Below, piece by piece: positions 8,622-22,435 of a stretch of DNA of 64,000 bases (positions are counted from its first letter, which is position 1; every line of letters begins with the position of its first letter). The notes below the pieces were generated by a model. It did not search any database. It saw nothing but the letters and a program-made list of their open reading frames with translations, and was not told the origin of the DNA. Made by a program: the position numbers and the translations under genes. The stretch covers positions 1,116,001 to 1,180,000 of the forward strand of contig NZ_CP097800.1 of the NCBI RefSeq assembly GCF_000612545.2, read 5' to 3'. Source of the DNA: Streptomyces sp. PCS3-D2 (GTDB lineage: Bacteria > Actinomycetota > Actinomycetes > Streptomycetales > Streptomycetaceae).

Positions 8622-9533
8622 TCAGGCCGCGGGGCGGGCTCCGGCGCGTACCGGGGTCCGCCGCGGGGCGTCCGCGCGCTCCCGGCCGAAGGCGAGGTCG
8701 GCCATCCGGCGCTCCGGTCCTCGGCGCCGCAGGACCTGGTAGGCGACGAAGGCCGCCGGGCCGAAGAACACCTGGGCGGGGACGATGCCGGGGTCGTCGC
8801 CGGTGGCCGCCGCGATCAGGTGCAGGGCGGCCACCGGCGCCACCGCGCCGAAGAGCACCACGAGTGCGGCCCCGGCCCGCAGCCCCCGCTTCCCGTACGC
8901 CTTGTAGGCGGTGGTGGTGAACAGGGCGTAGGCCAGCAGGTCGCCCATGCCGATGACGGCACCGAAGTCCTCACCGATGCGCAGGCCCGCGGCCGGCGCG
9001 TACGGGTAGCCCTGGACGGCATCGGCGAGCTCCTGGGTCAGCGGGACGACCCAGGCGAAGAAGGCGTCGTAGGCAGCGAGGGCGAGCAGGAACCACGCCA
9101 CGTTCTTCAACCGCATGCCGCCCTGGACGTTGATGTTCGTGGCGGAGACGACGACCAGGCCGACGACGGCGCTGTTGGCCACCCAGTACGGCGGCGCGGT
9201 CTCGCCGAAGGACAGGTGGGCGACGAGCACGCTCGCGATCAGCAGGACGATCAGCGCCCAGCGCAGCCGGCCGTTGCCGATGATCGGCTGGTAGCCGACG
9301 GACAGTCCGCCGGCGAAGACCAGGGCGAGCACGCAGGGCAGGACGCCGCCCGGCAGCGCGAGGTAGACGTAGGGCAGCGCGAGGACGAAGCCCATCATCA
9401 TGAAGATGTCCCGGCCGTTGAAGACGCCGACGGGCGGCCTCGCGGTGCGGACGGAGCGGAAGTACGCGATGGCGCCGGTGACGACCGCGAGGGCGAGGGC
9501 CGCGGTGACCGCGAGCTGGAAGAAGACCGTCAT
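8622..9533 (-). CDS. Presenilin/SPP-like GxGD intramembrane aspartyl protease candidate
   Basis: The protein has 303 residues and about eight or nine hydrophobic segments. Three sites match family A22 (signal peptide peptidase/presenilin). The first is KNVAWFLLALAAYDAFFAWV with the YD pair (Asp156). The second is FGAVIGMGDLLAYALF with GxGD (Asp198). The third is VPAQVFFGPAAF (252-262), which fits the C-terminal PAL region as PAxx(Y/F)xxPA. Both catalytic aspartates fall inside predicted membrane helices. Family knowledge: such proteases cut peptides within the membrane. The ATG overlaps the stop of the PaaK-like gene by 4 nt, placing it third in an operon that begins with a 29-residue membrane-like peptide, an obvious candidate substrate. 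The C-terminal ~35 residues are basic and probably cytoplasmic. The PAL leucine is Gln here. Confidence 0.65.
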   Translation of the reverse strand: MTVFFQLAVTAALALAVVTGAIAYFRSVRTARPPVGVFNGRDIFMMMGFVLALPYVYLALPGGVLPCVLALVFAGGLSVGYQPIIGNGRLRWALIVLLIASVLVAHLSFGETAPPYWVANSAVVGLVVVSATNINVQGGMRLKNVAWFLLALAAYDAFFAWVVPLTQELADAVQGYPYAPAAGLRIGEDFGAVIGMGDLLAYALFTTTAYKAYGKRGLRAGAALVVLFGAVAPVAALHLIAAATGDDPGIVPAQVFFGPAAFVAYQVLRRRGPERRMADLAFGRERADAPRRTPVRAGARPAA

Positions 9534-10942
9534 GCGTGGCTCCGGGTGAAGGTGTGCTCCGCCAGGTCGCAGCGGAGGGGGAAGCGGCGTGCGGCCTCCT
9601 CGTCGTCCAGCGGCAGGACGGTGACGCGTGCCTCGATGCCGCGGGCCAGCAGCCGCCCGGCCACCTCGCCCTTCGTCGCGGTCCGCGAGGCGACCTCCAC
9701 GTGGAGGCGGCCGTCGGCCCCGACCTCGGCCCGGTGGCGCAGCGGCCACGGCATGCCCGGGGTGCCGTCCAGGGCCTCCACCACGTCGCGCGGCGTGACG
9801 ACCGCCTCGGCGGTGCGCAGCAGGGTGCCCGCCTTGCCGAGGATCTGCGAGACGGCGGGCACGGCGGCCAGTTCGCAGTCCGGTTCGCCCTCCAGGGTGC
9901 GCACCACGTCACCGGTGTTGTACCGCAGCACGGGCATGCACTCCCGGTAGGGGTAGTACGGCGTGACGGTCAGTTCGCCGAGCTGTCCCGGGCCGACGGG
10001 CTCGCCCGTGTCCAGGCCGAGTACCTCGGTGTAGCCCATGTTGGGGTCGATGTGGAGGTGGCGCCGGCTGCAGGTGCGGCCGCCGACCGGCAGGAGTTCG
10101 GTCATGCCGAAGTTGTCGCCGATGGTCTCGGCGCCGAAGGTCTCGCGCAGGGCGTTCACGAAGGCGGGCGAGACGATCTCGCCGCCCGCGTAGATCGCCC
10201 GCAGACCGAAGTCGTCCGGCCCGTATCCGCGTCGGCGGGCCGCTGTGAGCATCCGGGCCAGGTAGCTGGGGTTGCCGGTGAGCAGGGTGGGGCGGGGGCC
10301 GCTGCCGCCGAGCAGGTGCTCGACGGACTCCTCGGGCGGTACCTGGCCGACCACGTGGCAGGAGGCTCCGACGAGCCGGCAGACCTCGACGTCCTCCTGT
10401 ACGGCCGCCGTCGCCCGGGAGCTGAGGTTGATCTGCATCCGGTCGCCGGGGCGAATGTCGCCGCGCAGCACCACGGACAGGGCGATCAGCGCGGGCCATA
10501 GCTCCATCTCGTAGCGGGAGAGCCATATCTGCACGGGACGGCCGGTGGTGCCGGTCGTCTGGGTGGCCAGGTAGGGCGCGCTGCACAGGAAGTCCGCCGG
10601 GCGCTCGATCAGGTCGGCCTTGCGGGTCACCGGGATCCGGGTGAGCGTCTCGGTGGTCAGTGCGCCGAGGTCGATGCCGGCGAGCCGCTCCCGGTAGAAG
10701 GGCGAGCGCTCGGCCAGTCGGCGCACGGTCCGCTGGAGCGCGCGGTTCTGCAGGTCGCGCCGCTCGTCCGGGTCGGCGAACGGGCCGTCCGCCAGTTCGT
10801 CGACGTCGTCGCCGAGGGAACCGAACTCCTCCAGCGTGGCGAGGGCGTCGGCGACCAGACGCTCCACGGCCCGTACGTTCAGCTTCCGGCCGAACACCAT
10901 GGCCATCGCGACCCGGACCTGCCGGACACCGGTCTCCAGCAC
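9530..10942 (-). CDS. PaaK-like adenylate-forming enzyme (phenylacetate-CoA ligase family)
   Basis: This encodes 470 residues. The P-loop is QTTGTTGRPVQ, followed by IYAGGEIVS, DNFGMTELLP (A5-like) and LRYNTGDVV (A7-like), in the order found in phenylacetate-CoA ligases and coenzyme F390 synthetase-like enzymes. These activate a carboxylate as the acyl-adenylate and pass it to a thiol. There is no carrier domain and no phenylacetate catabolic gene nearby. It sits between a tiny peptide gene and a GxGD protease gene, so a role in modifying that peptide or making an acyl group for it is inferred. GTG 10942 has a full AGGAGG at 10948-10953. Position in the operon argues against a role in aromatic degradation. 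Confidence 0.8.
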   Translation of the reverse strand: MLETGVRQVRVAMAMVFGRKLNVRAVERLVADALATLEEFGSLGDDVDELADGPFADPDERRDLQNRALQRTVRRLAERSPFYRERLAGIDLGALTTETLTRIPVTRKADLIERPADFLCSAPYLATQTTGTTGRPVQIWLSRYEMELWPALIALSVVLRGDIRPGDRMQINLSSRATAAVQEDVEVCRLVGASCHVVGQVPPEESVEHLLGGSGPRPTLLTGNPSYLARMLTAARRRGYGPDDFGLRAIYAGGEIVSPAFVNALRETFGAETIGDNFGMTELLPVGGRTCSRRHLHIDPNMGYTEVLGLDTGEPVGPGQLGELTVTPYYPYRECMPVLRYNTGDVVRTLEGEPDCELAAVPAVSQILGKAGTLLRTAEAVVTPRDVVEALDGTPGMPWPLRHRAEVGADGRLHVEVASRTATKGEVAGRLLARGIEARVTVLPLDDEEAARRFPLRCDLAEHTFTRSHA

Positions 10943-10970
10943 TCGTGCCTCCTCTCAGGCGTGAAGAAGA

Positions 10971-11000
10971 GGGGTGGGGGCGGCGCGCCGCCCCCACCCC
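10971..11000. terminator. Perfect 30-nt palindrome between peptide gene and PaaK-like gene
   Basis: The arms GGGGTGGGGGCGGCG (10971-10985) and CGCCGCCCCCACCCC (10986-11000) are exact complements with no unpaired centre. The palindrome starts 12 nt after the peptide stop codon (minus strand) and ends 29 nt before the next start. It could be a leaky terminator or an mRNA-stabilising hairpin that raises peptide transcript over enzyme transcript, as is common in peptide-precursor operons. No U-tract follows. Confidence 0.6.
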
Positions 11001-11011
11001 CCGCATCTGCG

Positions 11012-11101
11012 TCAGCTGGAAGAGCAAGAACCGAAGAAGACGGCCGTCATGGCACCCATGACGTACTTGAACTGCTTGGCGCTGGTCTTGATCGCGCTCA
11101 T
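11012..11101 (-). CDS. 29-residue membrane-like peptide, putative precursor
   Basis: This is a tiny gene with an excellent ribosome site: AAGGAGGA four nt before ATG 11101. The peptide starts MSAIKTSAKQFK (three lysines), continues with a hydrophobic core YVMGAMTAVFF and ends GSCSSS, with its only Cys at position 26. The layout is a positively charged head, one short membrane-spanning core and a small polar tail. That suits insertion in the membrane and cleavage by the GxGD protease encoded two genes downstream. The single Cys and following serines could be modification or cyclisation sites. It is first in the operon, ahead of a strong hairpin. I do not recognise the family; leaderless bacteriocin or autoinducer-like signal are alternatives. 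Confidence 0.7.
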   Translation of the reverse strand: MSAIKTSAKQFKYVMGAMTAVFFGSCSSS

Positions 11102-11178
11102 CGGATCCTCCTTTTGTCGCTCCTGGTGGACGCGCTTCCCGGGCCCCTTGAGGGGTCGTTCCGCCCGTCCCTGGGTGA

Positions 11179-11205
11179 CAACACCCTGGCGCGATCGCGG
11201 TGTTG
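11179..11205. promoter_or_regulatory. Inverted repeat CAACACC-N13-GGTGTTG upstream of the peptide gene
   Basis: CAACACC (11179-11185) and GGTGTTG (11199-11205) are exact inverted arms around a GC-rich 13-nt centre containing GCGATCGC. It lies 78 nt upstream of the peptide start and ~140 nt upstream of the IclR-type regulator. This is a plausible protein-binding site in the divergent promoter region. No function is shown. Confidence 0.4.
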
Positions 11206-11218
11206 CGGGCAATGATCG

Positions 11219-11235
11219 GGTCCGTTCAACGGACC
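11219..11235. promoter_or_regulatory. Operator-like palindrome GGTCCGTTCAACGGACC
   Basis: This is a perfect 17-nt palindrome (8-nt arms, one central base) in the 241-nt gap between the divergent peptide operon and the IclR-type regulator gene. Its half-site AACGGAC recurs as TACGGAC in the inverted repeat at 11294-11324. IclR-family proteins bind palindromic operators in such divergent gaps, so the neighbouring regulator is the natural candidate. Confidence 0.5.
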
Positions 11236-11293
11236 GGCGAAAGCGGAGGGCGGTACCACCGTTCCTGCTGATGAGCCGGGACGAACGGGGAGT

Positions 11294-11324
11294 TACGGAC
11301 ACCATCCGACCGATGTCGTCCGTA
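11294..11324. promoter_or_regulatory. Inverted repeat TACGGAC-N17-GTCCGTA before the IclR-type gene
   Basis: The exact arms TACGGAC (11294-11300) and GTCCGTA (11318-11324) end 18 nt before the regulator ATG. They share the ACGGAC core with the palindrome at 11219-11235. This position suggests autoregulation by roadblock or repression. Confidence 0.45.
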
Positions 11325-11342
11325 CGAAAGGGGGTTCCGCTC

Positions 11343-12146
11343 ATGGCCAGATCCGGCACTGAGGGGCGGGGTGTACTGGAGGGCGCGTTCGCGCTCATGG
11401 AAGTGCTCGCGCACGGCGACGAGGTAGGTCTGACCAAACTGGCGGCGGACGCCGAACTGCCGAAGGCCACGGCGCACCGGCTGCTCGGGCAGTTGGTCGC
11501 GCTCGGCGCGGTGCAGAGCGTCTCGGGCCGCTATCGGCTGGGGCCGAGGACGTTCCGGCTGGGGCAGGCGTGGCATCCGGCGCGGGCACTGCGGGCTGCG
11601 TCGGCGCGGCCCCTGCGTGAACTCGCCGCGGTCGGCGGTGGCAGGCTCGGGGTCAGCCTGTCGGTCCCCGAGGCGGGCAACGCCCTCGTGGTCGGGAGCA
11701 CGCGCAGCGAGGTGGACGAGGCGTTCGCGCTGCATCCCGGCGCGGTTCTGCCGCCGGGGAGCGCGGCCGAGCTGGTCCTGACGGCGTCGGCCCGGGAGGC
11801 GGGCCCGCCGCCGGGGTGGTCGCGGGCCGCGTGGTCACGGGAGGCGGTACGGGTCAGGGAACAGGGCATGGCCTTCCAGTACGGGCAGTGCGTGAGCGCG
11901 CTGTCGTGCGTGGCGGCTCCGGTGTTCTCCGACACCGGGCACGTGGTGGCCGCCGTGGCGGCGTCGGCACTGGACGGCAAACAGATCGCGCTTCTGGGCG
12001 AGGCCGTGGTCCGTGCGGCGGCGAGGGTGAGCACGAACCTGTCCCGGCTGCGGGCGCCCGCGGCGCGGCCGCGCCGCGAGGGGGAGTCCGCGCAGGGTCC
12101 GGCCGGCCGGGCCTCCCGGCACGCCGTGATGGCGCAACGGCACTAG
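11343..12146 (+). CDS. IclR-family transcriptional regulator
   Basis: This encodes 267 residues. The N-terminus is a classic IclR winged helix: GVLEGAFALMEVLAHG, then LTKLAADAELPKATAHRLLGQLVALGAVQ and YRLGPRTFRLG. The C-terminal effector domain is present but somewhat shorter and more divergent than usual, with CVAAPVFSDTGHVVAAVAASAL matching the conserved end of the ligand pocket. ATG 11343 follows AAAGGGGG. It is divergent from the peptide/PaaK/GxGD operon, with palindromic sites between them, so control of that operon and of itself is the simplest reading. The ligand is unknown. Residues after ~240 are basic and low in complexity. Confidence 0.85.
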   Translation: MARSGTEGRGVLEGAFALMEVLAHGDEVGLTKLAADAELPKATAHRLLGQLVALGAVQSVSGRYRLGPRTFRLGQAWHPARALRAASARPLRELAAVGGGRLGVSLSVPEAGNALVVGSTRSEVDEAFALHPGAVLPPGSAAELVLTASAREAGPPPGWSRAAWSREAVRVREQGMAFQYGQCVSALSCVAAPVFSDTGHVVAAVAASALDGKQIALLGEAVVRAAARVSTNLSRLRAPAARPRREGESAQGPAGRASRHAVMAQRH

Positions 12147-12208: not shown

Positions 12209-12397
12209 CGCGTCTGCCGGCCCGGCGCGGGTCGAGGCGCACCGGGACCGGGGTGACCGGCCGTTCGTGCGACATGGGTACCATCCGTCGAATTCCCATG
12301 CGAAGAACGGGCCGTGGTCGGATGTCCGGGCGCGCCCGTCACCCCGCCCCCACCGCACCGCACCGCACCACGAGCACCTTCGAGAGGCAGTCCGAAC

Positions 12398-13639
12398 ATG
12401 CCCCTGGCGATCCCGCCCTTCAGCGTGCTGTCCGACGCGTTCGACGCCGCACCCGAACGCTTCTTCGCGCACCTCAGGGAGCGGGTCCCGGTGCACTACG
12501 AGCCGACGATCGACGGCTACTTCCTCTCCCGTCACCAGGACGTGAAGCGGGTGCTGACCGACCAGGAGGCGTTCACCACCGAGATGCTCCAGGTACGCGC
12601 CGAGCCCGTGATGCGCGGGCGGGTCCTCGCCCAGATGACCGGCGCGGAGCACACGGCGAAGCGGAAGATCGTCGTGCGCGCGTTCACCGGCTCCGCCCTC
12701 CAGGACCAGATACGCGCCATCCGCGCCAACGCCGCCGAACTCATCGCCCCGTTCCTCCCGCAGGGCCGGATCGACCTGGTCGGCGACTTCGGCAAGCCCT
12801 TCGCCGTGCACGTCGCCCTGGACGTCCTCGGCCTGGACAGGGCCGACTGGCAGCAGGTGGCCCGCTGGCACAGCGGGGTCGCCGAGTTCGTCACCGGCCT
12901 GGCCCTGACCCCGGAGCGCCGACGGCACTGCCTGGACTGCGCGGAGCGACTGGAGGCCCACCTCGCCCCGGTCATCCGGCAGCGGCGCCGCCGGCCCGGC
13001 CGGGACCTGATATCGAAGCTGTGCACCGCGGAGTTCGACGGCATCACCATGAGCGATCGCGACGTCACCGCGCTGATCATCAACGTGCTGGTCGCAGCCG
13101 CGGAACCCGCGGACAAGACCATCGCCCTGCTCTTCAAGCACCTGATCGACCACCCCGAGCAGATGGCGCAGGTCCGCCGGGACCCGGAACTGCTCGCCGC
13201 GGCGATCGCGGAGACCCTGCGCCTGACCCCGCCCGTCCAGCTCATCCCCCGACAGACGGCGCAGGACGCCGTGTTCGCGGGGACCACCGTCCCGGCGGGC
13301 GCCACCGTCTTCTGCATGATCGGCGCGGCCAACCGCGATCCGGACGCGTTCGCCGACCCGGACTCCTTCGACATCCACCGCGCGGACCTGGGTACGGCCC
13401 GGTCGTTCACCGCGGCCGCCCAGCACCTGGCGTTCGGGAACGGGCTCCACCAGTGCGTCGGCGCGGCCTTCGCGCGTGCCGAGATCGAGACCGTCGCCGC
13501 GATGCTCCTGCCCCTGCTGGACGAGGTCCGCTACAGCCCCGGGTTCCGCTACCGGGAGACGGGCCTGTACACCCGGGGACCGGCCTCCCTGTCGCTGGAC
13601 TTCACTCCCGTGCGGGGAAGTGGAACCCGCCGCGACTGA
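12398..13639 (+). CDS. Cytochrome P450
   Basis: The protein has 413 residues, the normal length for a soluble bacterial P450. It has the heme-ligand loop FGNGLHQCVG (Cys353), the K-helix ETLR, and an I-helix reading NVLVAAAEPADKT. In the I-helix the usual AGxxT acid-alcohol pair is altered (AAEPADKT), which may affect oxygen activation. ATG 12398 starts the conserved region (MPLAIPPFSVLSDAF); an earlier in-frame start at 12314 adds a low-complexity tail and is less likely. It is the first of four same-strand genes ending with a carotenoid oxygenase, so it may oxidise an apocarotenoid or terpenoid. The substrate is an inference from context only. Confidence 0.9.
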   Translation: MPLAIPPFSVLSDAFDAAPERFFAHLRERVPVHYEPTIDGYFLSRHQDVKRVLTDQEAFTTEMLQVRAEPVMRGRVLAQMTGAEHTAKRKIVVRAFTGSALQDQIRAIRANAAELIAPFLPQGRIDLVGDFGKPFAVHVALDVLGLDRADWQQVARWHSGVAEFVTGLALTPERRRHCLDCAERLEAHLAPVIRQRRRRPGRDLISKLCTAEFDGITMSDRDVTALIINVLVAAAEPADKTIALLFKHLIDHPEQMAQVRRDPELLAAAIAETLRLTPPVQLIPRQTAQDAVFAGTTVPAGATVFCMIGAANRDPDAFADPDSFDIHRADLGTARSFTAAAQHLAFGNGLHQCVGAAFARAEIETVAAMLLPLLDEVRYSPGFRYRETGLYTRGPASLSLDFTPVRGSGTRRD

Positions 13640-18149: not shown

Positions 18150-19112
18150 GGGTGCCGGGTGGGGGTCAGCGGCTGGTGCCGCCCAGGCCGGAGGGCCCTT
18201 GCCAGGCACCATTGCTCACCCAGTCATTGGCGAGACTGCCATTGGCATCGACGAACGCCACATGCGTACCGGCCGCGTCAGTAGCAAGCCCGGAACCGGC
18301 CCGAGCCTTACCACCGATCCCCGACGGACCCTGCCAAGCACCATTACTCACCCAGTCATTCGCCACATTGCCATTCGTATCGACGAAGAAGACGTGATCA
18401 CCGGCCGCATTGAACGCCAACGGCGAATCCCCACGCGGCTGACCACCCATACCCGACGGGCCATACCAAGCACCATCGCTCACCCAGTCATTGACCAGAT
18501 TCCCACTGGCATCCACGAACGCCACATGCGTACCAGCCGCGTCAGTAGCAAGCCCGGAACCGGCCCGAGCCTTACCACCGATCCCCGACGGACCCTGCCA
18601 AACACCATTACTCACCCAGTCATTCACCACATTGCCATTCGCATCGATGAAGAAGACGTGATCACCGGCCGCATTGAACGCCAACGGCGAATCCCCACGC
18701 GCCTTACCGCCCAGCCCCGACGGGCCATGCCAAGCACCGTCAGCCACCCAGTCGTTCACCACATCACCATTCACATCGACGAACGCCACCAACGTGCCCG
18801 CCGCATTGGTCGCGATCGGCGAACCCGGCCGCGCCTTCCCACCGATCGCGGAAGGACCCTGCCACACCCCGTTACTCACCCAGTCGTTCATCACGTTGCC
18901 ATCGGCATCAATGAAGAACGCATGGTCGGCATTCGCATTCAAAACCACCGGCGAATCCGCGCGAGCCCTACCACCGATGCCCGCAGGACCCTGCCAAGCA
19001 CCATTGCTCACCCAATCGTTCGCAACACTCCCACTACCATCCACGAACGCCACATGCGTCGCACCGGCGTCCATCGACACCGGAGACGTCACGCCGCCAG
19101 CCGACGTGGCGA
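18150..19112. repeat. 963-nt direct repeat, copy 1 (partner 19931-20893)
   Basis: This segment and 19931-20893 are the same length. By eye they differ at about five bases: near 18330, two near 18370, near 18924 and near 19028. The repeat covers the whole seven-module C-terminal domain of the SpoIID-like gene plus its stop and ~16 nt beyond. Within the copy, 132-nt modules repeat in tandem. GC is visibly lower than in the flanking genes. Confidence 0.95.
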
Positions 19113-19866
19113 TCGATAGTCCAAGGTAGTAGGCACCCAGGATCGATTGCCAAGAGCGGCCGGCGAGGGCGCAGTTCTGCGAGCCCCACTGGCTGAGCGT
19201 ATTCGGGTACCTGGACAGTCCCGTTCCGCAGGCTTCGGACGTGCTTCCGGTGAGCGTCGCCTGGTACGAGGCTTGGAAGACCGAGCCGTTCTTGGTCATC
19301 ACCGAGGTCCAGGTCGACTGAACGGCCGAGTTGGTGACGGTGGTGGAGCTTCCGGGTATGTAGCGCTGATAGTTGATCGAGTCGTCGACGTTGTAGCAGG
19401 TGCCGCCGTACGACCCGCCACGCCAGTTGTTGACCCAGTACCACGCGTAGGTCTTCACCGCCATCGCACCGGCCTGCAGCGAGGCGGCCTGCCAGGAGGT
19501 GACCCATTCACTGGGCAGAACGTCCTTCACATACTCCTGGAACGGCACGTTGACCACGCCGATCTCGGTACCCGGGACCGGCGCGCCGACGCTGGTGTGC
19601 TGCGCGTATCGCAGCACCCGGATGCTGGCAGGTGGTGTCGAGTCGGACGAGTAGCCGCCACAGCTGCCGCTCGCTGCCGCCGGAGCCGCTGCGACCCGGG
19701 GAGTGGACAGGAGGGCCGACGGTGCGATCTGGCCGCTGATGGGCTGCGGCTGGCTCGTCGCGTTCGGCTGCGGGGAGGCGATTGCCGGCCCCGCCATAGC
19801 GAAGCTCAGGGCCGCCACCGCCATGACGCCGCTGAGCGTCAGACGTGGACCACGGATGACAGACAA
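18166..19866 (-). CDS. Exported SpoIID/LytB-domain protein with seven-repeat C-terminal domain
   Basis: This encodes 566 residues from TTG 19866, chosen because AAGGA lies 6-9 nt upstream and the frame then opens directly with a signal peptide (SVIRGPRLTLSGVMAVAAL...GPAIA). The GTG at 19893 adds nine charged residues and has no ribosome site. Residues ~90-235 match SpoIID/LytB (PFQEYVKDVLPSEWVTSW, LQAGAMAVKTYAWYWVNN), a glycan-strand lytic fold that acts on cell wall. The last ~308 residues are seven 44-residue repeats with consensus (H/F)VFFIDANGNVxNDWVSNG and WQGPSGIGGKAR. Seven such repeats suggest a seven-bladed propeller, perhaps a PLL-like lectin, for binding wall or host glycans; that part is inference. 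Confidence 0.85.
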   Translation of the reverse strand: MSVIRGPRLTLSGVMAVAALSFAMAGPAIASPQPNATSQPQPISGQIAPSALLSTPRVAAAPAAASGSCGGYSSDSTPPASIRVLRYAQHTSVGAPVPGTEIGVVNVPFQEYVKDVLPSEWVTSWQAASLQAGAMAVKTYAWYWVNNWRGGSYGGTCYNVDDSINYQRYIPGSSTTVTNSAVQSTWTSVMTKNGSVFQASYQATLTGSTSEACGTGLSRYPNTLSQWGSQNCALAGRSWQSILGAYYLGLSIATSAGGVTSPVSMDAGATHVAFVDGSGSVANDWVSNGAWQGPAGIGGRARADSPVVLNANADHAFFIDADGNVMNDWVSNGVWQGPSAIGGKARPGSPIATNAAGTLVAFVDVNGDVVNDWVADGAWHGPSGLGGKARGDSPLAFNAAGDHVFFIDANGNVVNDWVSNGVWQGPSGIGGKARAGSGLATDAAGTHVAFVDASGNLVNDWVSDGAWYGPSGMGGQPRGDSPLAFNAAGDHVFFVDTNGNVANDWVSNGAWQGPSGIGGKARAGSGLATDAAGTHVAFVDANGSLANDWVSNGAWQGPSGLGGTSR

Positions 19867-19930
19867 TTCCGATTCCTTGTCGGTGGACCGCACCGGCCGG
19901 CAGGACCGGTCCGGCTCGGTGGCTGTTGAT

Positions 19931-20893
19931 GGGTGCCGGGTGGGGGTCAGCGGCTGGTGCCGCCCAGGCCGGAGGGCCCTTGCCAGGCACCATTGCTCAC
20001 CCAGTCATTGGCGAGACTGCCATTGGCATCGACGAACGCCACATGCGTACCGGCCGCGTCAGTAGCAAGCCCGGAACCGGCCCGAGCCTTACCACCGATC
20101 CCCGACGGACCCTGCCAAACACCATTACTCACCCAGTCATTCGCCACATTGCCATTCGCATCGATGAAGAAGACGTGATCACCGGCCGCATTGAACGCCA
20201 ACGGCGAATCCCCACGCGGCTGACCACCCATACCCGACGGGCCATACCAAGCACCATCGCTCACCCAGTCATTGACCAGATTCCCACTGGCATCCACGAA
20301 CGCCACATGCGTACCAGCCGCGTCAGTAGCAAGCCCGGAACCGGCCCGAGCCTTACCACCGATCCCCGACGGACCCTGCCAAACACCATTACTCACCCAG
20401 TCATTCACCACATTGCCATTCGCATCGATGAAGAAGACGTGATCACCGGCCGCATTGAACGCCAACGGCGAATCCCCACGCGCCTTACCGCCCAGCCCCG
20501 ACGGGCCATGCCAAGCACCGTCAGCCACCCAGTCGTTCACCACATCACCATTCACATCGACGAACGCCACCAACGTGCCCGCCGCATTGGTCGCGATCGG
20601 CGAACCCGGCCGCGCCTTCCCACCGATCGCGGAAGGACCCTGCCACACCCCGTTACTCACCCAGTCGTTCATCACGTTGCCATCGGCATCAATGAAGAAC
20701 GCATGTTCGGCATTCGCATTCAAAACCACCGGCGAATCCGCGCGAGCCCTACCACCGATGCCCGCAGGACCCTGCCAAGCACCATTGCTCACCCAATCGT
20801 TCGCAACGCTCCCACTACCATCCACGAACGCCACATGCGTCGCACCGGCGTCCATCGACACCGGAGACGTCACGCCGCCAGCCGACGTGGCGA
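19931..20893. repeat. 963-nt direct repeat, copy 2 (partner 18150-19112)
   Basis: This is the second copy of the seven-module block, here forming the C-terminal part of the NlpC/P60-like gene. Identity with copy 1 ends abruptly where each protein's own catalytic domain begins, after GACGTGGCGA. This indicates recent duplication or gene conversion rather than old divergence. Confidence 0.95.
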
Positions 20894-21485
20894 CGACGTT
20901 CTTGTAGCGCAGGGCCTCGTAGTTCGTGATCGCGTGGCCGTCGAGCGTGCTCGCGTAGACGCTGCCCTTGGTCTGGTCGGCCACGGTGCCCGGGCGGTGT
21001 TCGGCGTCGTAGTAGAACGTTCCGGCGGACTTGTCGATCCACGAGTCGAACAGCACGACGTGGTCGGCTGTGTAGTCGAGTGCGTCGCCCGGCTGCAGGC
21101 CGGTATAGCCGATGACATTCTTGGCGGTGACGGTCGAGACATCGGGGAGGGTCCAGGTAACCAGGCTGTCCTTCAGGCCCCACGCCATCGAGATGAATCC
21201 GGAGCAGTCTGCGCGGTACGGTCCGCCGACCGCGTTGTCCTTCCAGGCGAGCGACTGGCTGTACGGAACTGCGTTGCTGATCCAGTCGTGCGCCCGGGCG
21301 ATGATCTGTCCCTGAGTGATCGCGCCACCGGGCGCGGCCGGACCGATGCTGCCGGTCGAGGTGGCGGGACCCACTGGAACGGTTCCGGCGAACGCGTCAC
21401 TGGTGGGTATCAGCGCGGCCATCGCGCCGAGCAGCGATACGGTCGCGAGCGCGGCGACGCCACGCTTCTTGGTTGTTGAGGACAT
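19947..21485 (-). CDS. Exported NlpC/P60-like (amidase-fold) protein with seven-repeat C-terminal domain
   Basis: This encodes 512 residues. ATG 21485 has GAAGGAAAG just upstream. A signal peptide (KKRGVAALATVSLLGAMAAL...DAFA) is followed by a catalytic-type domain at ~60-200. It contains PYRADCSGFISMAWGL (DCSGF with the catalytic Cys), LQPGDALDYTADHVVLFDSW (the DHVVLF His region) and YYDAEHRPG. This is the cysteine-peptidase/amidase layout of NlpC/P60 and related wall hydrolases. The rest is the same seven-repeat domain as in the neighbouring SpoIID-like protein, nearly identical at DNA level. The two probably attach different wall enzymes to the same target. Confidence 0.85.
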   Translation of the reverse strand: MSSTTKKRGVAALATVSLLGAMAALIPTSDAFAGTVPVGPATSTGSIGPAAPGGAITQGQIIARAHDWISNAVPYSQSLAWKDNAVGGPYRADCSGFISMAWGLKDSLVTWTLPDVSTVTAKNVIGYTGLQPGDALDYTADHVVLFDSWIDKSAGTFYYDAEHRPGTVADQTKGSVYASTLDGHAITNYEALRYKNVVATSAGGVTSPVSMDAGATHVAFVDGSGSVANDWVSNGAWQGPAGIGGRARADSPVVLNANAEHAFFIDADGNVMNDWVSNGVWQGPSAIGGKARPGSPIATNAAGTLVAFVDVNGDVVNDWVADGAWHGPSGLGGKARGDSPLAFNAAGDHVFFIDANGNVVNDWVSNGVWQGPSGIGGKARAGSGLATDAAGTHVAFVDASGNLVNDWVSDGAWYGPSGMGGQPRGDSPLAFNAAGDHVFFIDANGNVANDWVSNGVWQGPSGIGGKARAGSGLATDAAGTHVAFVDANGSLANDWVSNGAWQGPSGLGGTSR

Positions 21486-21517
21486 TTCTTTCCTTCGATC
21501 GTCGGCGAGTTCTCGGA

Positions 21518-22435
21518 TCAGCGGGTACCGGCCGGGTCGGCCAGCAAGTTCGTGAGCAGCGACAGCACGCTCGGGTCCTGCTTCGTGTCGTACGGAGCGA
21601 CCGAGGGGGACCTCTCGGCCAGTTCGTCGAAGTGCAGGACCAGGACCCGCGTGCCGCGTGCCGCGAGGTAGAGGTGGTTGGTCTGCGCGCCGTGGGCCGA
21701 GATGCCCTCGACGCCGGTCCAGATGCGTTCGAATGCCGCCGCGTTCGCGGCGGTGCCGGTCTGCCGCGACACAGCATCGGCCTTGAGGCGGTTCGAGCTC
21801 TGTAGGGCCCTGGACGTGGCCTGGCAGGAGCTCATTCCGGAGCGGACGCCCTCGTACGCGGCGCCCGCCGCCTCCTCGGTGCCGAAGGTGTAGATCTCCA
21901 GCACTGCGGAGTTGCCACCGCTGCTCAGGTACGGCTGCTGCTGCCACGTCGCGGCGCCGTGCACGCTCGCACACTCGTTCAGCGCGATGTCATGCCCGGT
22001 GATCTGACGCACCGGTCCCGGGGCTTGCGCGGTCCACGGCTGGTCCGTGACGGCAGCGAGGTCGGACGGGACCTTCGCGCTCGTCGCCGCGTCGAGTGCG
22101 GGCGCCGGCACTGGACTGCCCAGGGCAGCGGTGTTCCCCCTGTCGCGCTTCGCCGGCTCCCCGGCAGTGCCGGGCACCGCGGCAGCAGTCGGCGCCCCGC
22201 CGTCGCTCGGCGTCACGGCCGGCGCGTCCGCCACGGGCGGCTGCGTTGCGGACGTCGACGCCGCGTCCCCGGTGGAGGCCGCCGCCGTGGCGGCCGCCTC
22301 GACCTGATCCGTGGCGAGCGCATGCGTGCCACCGCCCCACACCGCCAGACTCAGCGCAGCGGCGCCGAGGGCGGCGCCGGCTGCCACCGCTACGGCCCGG
22401 CGGGATCCTCGTACGGAGAACTTGGCTGCTGGCAT
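21518..22435 (-). CDS. Exported or membrane-anchored protein of unknown function
   Basis: This encodes 305 residues. ATG 22435 has AGGAG 10 nt upstream. One N-terminal hydrophobic segment (RRAVAVAAGAALGAAALSLAVW) acts as signal or anchor, followed by a ~100-residue Ala/Thr/Pro-rich linker. The C-terminal domain (~135-300) has CASVHGAATW, a paired Cys in MSSCQATS, and GTRVLVLHFDEL. Its length and two-Cys layout recall extracellular PknH-like sensor domains, but I would not assign it. It lies 33 nt upstream of the NlpC/P60-like gene and is probably cotranscribed with it. Confidence 0.6.
   Translation of the reverse strand: MPAAKFSVRGSRRAVAVAAGAALGAAALSLAVWGGGTHALATDQVEAAATAAASTGDAASTSATQPPVADAPAVTPSDGGAPTAAAVPGTAGEPAKRDRGNTAALGSPVPAPALDAATSAKVPSDLAAVTDQPWTAQAPGPVRQITGHDIALNECASVHGAATWQQQPYLSSGGNSAVLEIYTFGTEEAAGAAYEGVRSGMSSCQATSRALQSSNRLKADAVSRQTGTAANAAAFERIWTGVEGISAHGAQTNHLYLAARGTRVLVLHFDELAERSPSVAPYDTKQDPSVLSLLTNLLADPAGTR

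Follow-up and report, generated by a model that had tools for sequence, protein, structure and literature searches.

We analysed a 64,000-nucleotide stretch of the genome of Streptomyces sp. PCS3-D2 (contig NZ_CP097800.1, positions 1,116,001 to 1,180,000), called the window below, and in it a group of three genes which encode, in this order on the minus strand, a tiny peptide, a PaaK-like ligase and a membrane protein of the presenilin/signal peptide peptidase (SPP) fold. An earlier note on this DNA had placed such a trio here, with a strong ribosome site before the tiny gene. All three genes were located at this place, on the minus strand and with matching sizes and motifs, and the ATG of the membrane protein gene overlaps the ligase stop codon (ATGA). 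The features of the trio are:

11107..11115, minus strand: ribosome site of the peptide gene, AAAAGGAGG, read from the sequence, 5 bases 5' of the ATG; its GGAGG is invariant across 11 aligned upstream regions
11012..11101 (stop 11012-11014), minus strand: tiny gene for a 29-residue peptide, MSAIKTSAKQFKYVMGAMTAVFFGSCSSS, identified by translation, homologues, profile search and the ratio of non-synonymous to synonymous polymorphism (pN/pS)
10969..11002, minus strand: GC-rich hairpin with a 15-bp stem and a 4-base loop, then TTCTTC, between the peptide and ligase genes
9530..10942, minus strand: PaaK-family adenylate-forming ligase P0001, 470 residues, GTG start
8622..9533, minus strand: presenilin/SPP-fold (GxGD) membrane protein P0002, 303 residues, with D156, D198 and P252

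Conservation of the trio and of its peptide

The membrane protein was found in 19 of 296 Streptomyces genomes, the window's own included, and 16 of the loci of the 18 relatives (about 20 kb each) hold an intact trio. A second set of 46 loci, which shares species with the first and is not independent of it, covers Streptomyces, Actinacidiphila, Actinomadura, Actinoallomurus, Nonomuraea and two metagenome-assembled genomes of Chloroflexota (Anaerolineales, L069, and Thermomicrobiales, L070). In a 396-genome sample of the phylum the window's own match stood alone. The best few candidates were scored per genome (7 for the 296 Streptomyces, 5 for the 396-genome sample), and the counts are lower bounds.

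The ligase gene lies directly upstream of the membrane protein gene in 46 of the 46 loci, and the peptide gene lies upstream of the ligase gene in 42. Two loci (L050 and L061) stop at a contig edge and hence are not assessable for the peptide; in L071 the peptide gene is downstream of the membrane protein gene, and L069 carries two or more copies on the opposite strand. L070 has the peptide gene twice in tandem, and a good ribosome site precedes each copy. Peptide homologues were found at 44 of 44 assessable loci, and the peptide accompanies the trio through shifts of place, strand and copy number. In L069 (4502-5150, minus strand), next to two good copies, a third open reading frame starts with MKKLI, ends with GRSLN and differs in the middle; it is possibly a decayed copy.

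A profile built from 32 peptides matched 17 of the 296 Streptomyces genomes at E ≤ 1.3e-6, all of them within the 19 that have the membrane protein, the two left without a match being those with degraded loci. Weak matches (E 0.015 to 0.1) were seen in six further Streptomyces genomes, and no strong match without partner genes appeared among the 296. The conservation that the earlier note had counted on is seen, the peptide occurring with both partners in Streptomyces and in other genera. A plasmid collection yielded four replicons, three of them with the peptide, one being from Embleya. The Nonomuraea gerenzanensis replicon (L118) has a truncated ligase gene and a frameshifted membrane protein gene, and no peptide was found on it; L119 stood outside the ligase search. 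Two Streptomyces loci are likewise degraded, one frameshifted (G269, L036) and one a fragment without ligase (G019, L044); all three have a membrane protein gene that is broken or reduced to a fragment, a ligase gene that is truncated, broken or absent, and no peptide that the searches could find. In an annotated relative (L117) the ligase is named 'phenylacetate--CoA ligase family protein' and the membrane protein 'hypothetical protein', and the peptide is present in the DNA though absent from its (incomplete) gene table.

The Met1, Tyr13 and Phe23 residues are invariant in the 32 aligned peptides; a Lys or Arg precedes the Tyr, nine residues separate the Tyr from the Phe, and the tail varies in sequence and in length (3 to 6 residues). 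The layout, a basic head followed by a single hydrophobic segment, fits a substrate of an SPP-type protease. The pN/pS value is 0.24 for 12 clade A Streptomyces sequences and 0.47 for five from Actinomadura and Actinoallomurus, and a cruder count gave 0.27 for six clade B and 0.39 for 18 clade C sequences; the peptide product is therefore under selection as a protein. The conserved frame and the profile search rule out a chance open reading frame. No Pfam model matches the peptide, nor does NCBIfam name anything in it.

The peptides of clades A and B have 28-29 residues and a Cys, those of clade C have 22 residues, lack Cys and are of the MVKHYIKYAFSTLTAAMFASMV type, and those of Nonomuraea, Actinomadura syzygii and Chloroflexota have 24-29 residues, again without Cys. 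The GSCSSS tail described in the earlier note is thus no general trait of the family, and a mechanism requiring Cys is unlikely for the whole family because several peptide groups lack the residue. A lipoprotein reading of the Cys was rejected, since several peptides of clades A and B have N, Y or L in front of it, and the remaining groups have no Cys at all.

The membrane protein and the ligase

A profile of the membrane protein family gave one chance match against solved structures, and a fold comparison was therefore needed. The structure model of the membrane protein showed the presenilin/SPP fold in structural comparison, as the earlier note had supposed from the motifs. These motifs, Y155-D156, G195-M-G-D198 and P252-A...F...G258-P259, are those that the note had described. 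In an alignment of the window with relatives from 36 of the 46 loci, Y155, D156, G195, G197, D198, P252 and P259 are invariant (37/37). The YD and GxGD motifs lie in adjacent helices of the model (142-161 and from 196), and Pro252 stands just before helix 254-269. Prepilin-type GxGD proteases were absent from the best 50 rows of the structural list, an absence which carries no weight as evidence. By fold and motifs, the protein is an outlying branch, outside Pfam A22 as now drawn; the fold and the YD and GxGD motifs agree with an A22-type GxGD protein, the expected profile match did not appear, and the protein is a putative protease. Searched against Pfam, the window protein gave a single match, far below the cut-off, and NCBIfam names nothing in it. 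The clade C membrane proteins (e.g. L037:9019-10053, minus strand) are longer at the C-terminus, the added part including some 40 residues in a conserved stretch, and DUF5678 is matched weakly (best E 0.064) by 3 of the 37 members.

The ligase has the PaaK fold, the P-loop TTGTTG and the RYxTxD motif, which bears out its description as PaaK-like. Pfam finds the AMP-binding domain alone, and the NCBIfam matches, among them the PaaK, DVU_1553 and BagE/FevW models, are all far below cut-off. Its N-terminal part carries an invariant E39-F40-G41; alignment A5 of the family comprises the window and 26 of the 46 loci. A C-terminal motif without lysine, R[CA]DLxExxF, is conserved in 43 of 43 ligases (L073, L084 and L090 were left out of this count). 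A role in phenylacetate catabolism, as for PaaK, was rejected because the trio alone is common to the loci.

Hairpin, operator candidate and surroundings

The hairpin between the peptide and ligase genes was scored in the window and in 42 loci with an upstream peptide, L069 and L071 being outside this set. The stem score is at least 10 in 42 of the 43 (L070 is the one miss), and the folding z value against dinucleotide shuffles is below −2 in 35 of the 43. The stem sequences differ between clades. A T-rich run follows the hairpin in the window and in some clade A relatives, and in most loci there is none. The hairpin is possibly an attenuator or a 3'-stabiliser, and its anatomy would suggest that the peptide is made in excess over the enzymes encoded behind it. 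Two further features lie upstream of the peptide gene:

11219..11235, no strand: palindrome GGTCCGTT-C-AACGGACC in the space that separates the peptide gene from the divergent IclR gene, a possible operator
11343..12146, plus strand: IclR-type regulator, divergent neighbour (Pfam HTH_IclR, E 2.8e-11)

All 11 clade A Streptomyces upstream regions compared, from the window and 10 loci, retain the 17-base palindrome, its one variation being a C/T change in a single arm; it may act as operator of the peptide operon. An IclR gene adjoins the trio at five of the 18 Streptomyces loci (L027-L031) and, by crude gene calling, at 8 of the 46 loci of the second set. In clade A the IclR regulator probably controls the operon at the shared palindrome.

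The neighbourhoods have no gene in common beyond the trio and the IclR gene of clade A Streptomyces; the gene calls came from a crude GC-based caller, which missed some known genes and had the membrane protein gene in frame at 28 of the 46 loci. A cluster of ABC-type ATPases spans 7 of the 46 loci. Only its three Actinomadura members are closely alike (72-90%) and in the same place, just past the trio on the other strand (L055:6857-8041, L056:6849-8027 and L057:4135-5310, all minus), the next gene in L055 resembling a transporter permease; the remaining ones are about 30% alike and scattered. In the window, a cytochrome P450 gene lies past the IclR gene (12314-13639, plus strand; NCBIfam TIGR04538, 'cyclodipeptide synthase-associated', 513.9 bits against a cut-off of 500). 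Further on, two neighbouring open reading frames (18166-19893 and 19947-21974, minus strand) have differing N-terminal parts and a near-identical, repetitive C-terminal half of NDWVSNGAWQGP-type units, a pair that looks like a recent duplication. Among 93 pattern stretches in viral contigs there was no relative, and no PADLOC match was obtained at E ≤ 0.1; a virus-borne system and an anti-phage defence were rejected as readings.

A candidate peptide maturation system and its rivals

Taken together, we consider it probable (about 0.6) that the trio is a self-contained system making one small peptide product. From the computed trio, linkage, folds, charge pattern and hairpin we infer cleavage, modification, release and role as follows. 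The tiny gene would be expressed above the level of the enzymes because the hairpin follows it. The peptide is predicted to insert in type II orientation, N-in, so that the basic head lies on the cytosolic side and the short variable tail outside. The cytosolic PaaK-family enzyme would then make the acyl-adenylate of a carboxylic acid and join the acid to the peptide, the invariant interfacial Tyr13 being the acceptor that we favour; alternatively, it may activate a carboxyl group of the peptide itself. The SPP-type GxGD protease would cut the hydrophobic core near the invariant Phe23, towards the outer end, and the short C-terminal piece would be released outside, making a dedicated exporter unnecessary. 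For the product, a role as signal or antimicrobial is the most likely one. We propose more tentatively that the trio represents a new class of ribosomal peptides, in which a PaaK-family ligase acylates a membrane precursor of 22-29 residues, forming a phenol ester with the invariant Tyr, or activates the precursor's own carboxyl end, and a dedicated bacterial presenilin/SPP-type protease then frees it, giving a modified signal or antimicrobial secreted without an exporter.

Several points weigh against this proposal. No Pfam A22 model matches any of the 37 membrane proteins at E ≤ 1; PF06550 found nothing in the window's genome, its control matches being confined to 2 of 14 genomes, both archaea. 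The PAL motif is reduced to P-[ALV]-x, with PAQ in the proteins of clades A and B and, in those of clade C, PLL, PLM or PVL. The AlphaFold2 (AF2) model was built from 37 alignment rows, and DSSP finds eight membrane-length helices in it, the seventh (196-244) being long enough for two; nine spans, together with a C-in end, are obtained if this helix is split in two. Basic residues average 1.6 in loop 6, outside in this topology, versus 1.5 in loop 5, which is inside. With some 11 residues, the hydrophobic core of the peptide is short for crossing the whole membrane. Adenylation by the ligase is not certain because R[CA]DLxExxF appears to stand where canonical ligases have their catalytic A10 lysine. 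No receptor, immunity or export gene common to the loci was found within 6 kb, and the IclR gene is confined to the trios of clade A Streptomyces.

The main rival is a small-subunit role, in which the peptide would be a structural or regulatory part of a complex of ligase and presenilin-fold membrane protein, activating for example an acid at the membrane. Examples of such small subunits are CydX, KdpF and, in gamma-secretase, PEN-2. The tight co-occurrence of the peptide with its partner genes agrees with this role, and its conserved core with the invariant Tyr and Phe could pack against a partner. However, both Chloroflexota loci have at least two peptide copies, the hairpin would raise the peptide over the enzyme, and a tail of 3 to 6 residues with variable sequence suits a precursor better. 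The multiple copies and the hairpin speak for a precursor over a subunit, without settling the matter, and we regard the subunit role as unlikely.

It is quite improbable that the peptide, as a membrane-active toxin or antimicrobial, is held down by the protease, with the ligase as modifier, in a unit for immunity or self-protection. Its short, hydrophobic and basic character would suit a toxin, as would a small stand-alone unit of patchy distribution (19/296 Streptomyces), copies of which are in some cases on large replicons catalogued as plasmids, but PADLOC gave no match, the loci share no immunity or export gene, and the ligase is left unexplained. A presenilin-fold protein that is no protease, serving as scaffold or transporter for the ligase product while the peptide regulates translation or localisation, would accord with the missing A22 match and the degenerate PAL motif, but the invariance of YD, GxGD and the PAL-position Pro in 37/37 members from two phyla makes this very doubtful.

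Relation to known systems and meaning

The membrane protein shares its fold with SPP/SPPL (MEROPS A22B), presenilin (A22A) and the archaeal PSH, as well as the YD in helix 6, the GxGD where helix 7 begins, the Pro that opens the last membrane helix and a beta-hairpin between transmembrane helices 6 and 7, and its family has the N-out/C-in charge pattern of SPP. It differs in its low identity (about 12-15% in the structural alignments), in escaping the Pfam A22 models, in being bacterial and in its adjoining ligase and tiny peptide genes. The SHP/Rgg pheromones of streptococci, of about 22-23 residues, likewise come from tiny, formerly unannotated genes for basic-hydrophobic peptides, and Eep is a site-2 metalloprotease encoded apart from its peptide. 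According to one study, SHP signal production requires this intramembrane protease (PMC3150281). In contrast to the trio, the SHP/Rgg-Eep system has no ligase and the SHP genes sit by rgg regulators; beside our peptide gene no Rgg regulator was seen, the sole shared one being of IclR type in clade A Streptomyces, and no Rgg model was searched.

The layout of ribosomally synthesised and post-translationally modified peptide (RiPP) operons is similar in that the precursor gene comes first and is followed by a hairpin, a modifying enzyme and a protease, with tandem precursors at some loci. The trio differs in having no known RiPP modifying enzyme, the modification here being a proposal, and the peptide shows no recognised leader or core of a known RiPP class. 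The locus anatomy is compatible with a RiPP biosynthetic operon. Fold and motifs of the ligase are those of the natural-product AMP ligases of the PaaK family (BagE/FevW, NatL2, AjiA1, ClxA), which are not known to be linked to a peptide gene or a protease. It differs from them by its E39-F40-G41 N-terminal part and its particular C-terminal motif. FevW has been proposed to link two molecules via adenylation (PMC6692506).

Among the matches listed from the open-access literature, with subscription journals mostly outside, no title or abstract shown dealt with such peptides, with the trio or with an A22 protease from Streptomyces. What looks new is the system and the peptide family, the enzyme folds being already known; taken singly, the membrane protein would add a new branch to the A22 fold and the ligase a new one to the PaaK ligases. 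Relatives of the trio in two bacterial phyla suggest an undescribed route to a small peptide product.

Bacterial intramembrane proteolysis is usually framed by rhomboids and site-2 proteases, and presenilin is a human protease linked to Alzheimer's disease. In a review of bacterial regulated proteolysis, the aspartyl kind is exemplified by eukaryotic presenilin (PMC7593790). If our reading is true, bacteria would have a peptide maturation system built on an A22-type protease. With the gene of its putative substrate only two genes away, a bacterial presenilin/SPP-type protease would offer a minimal and genetically tractable model of this class of enzymes, and the trio could give access to a new group of peptide signals or natural products made by bacteria that produce antibiotics.

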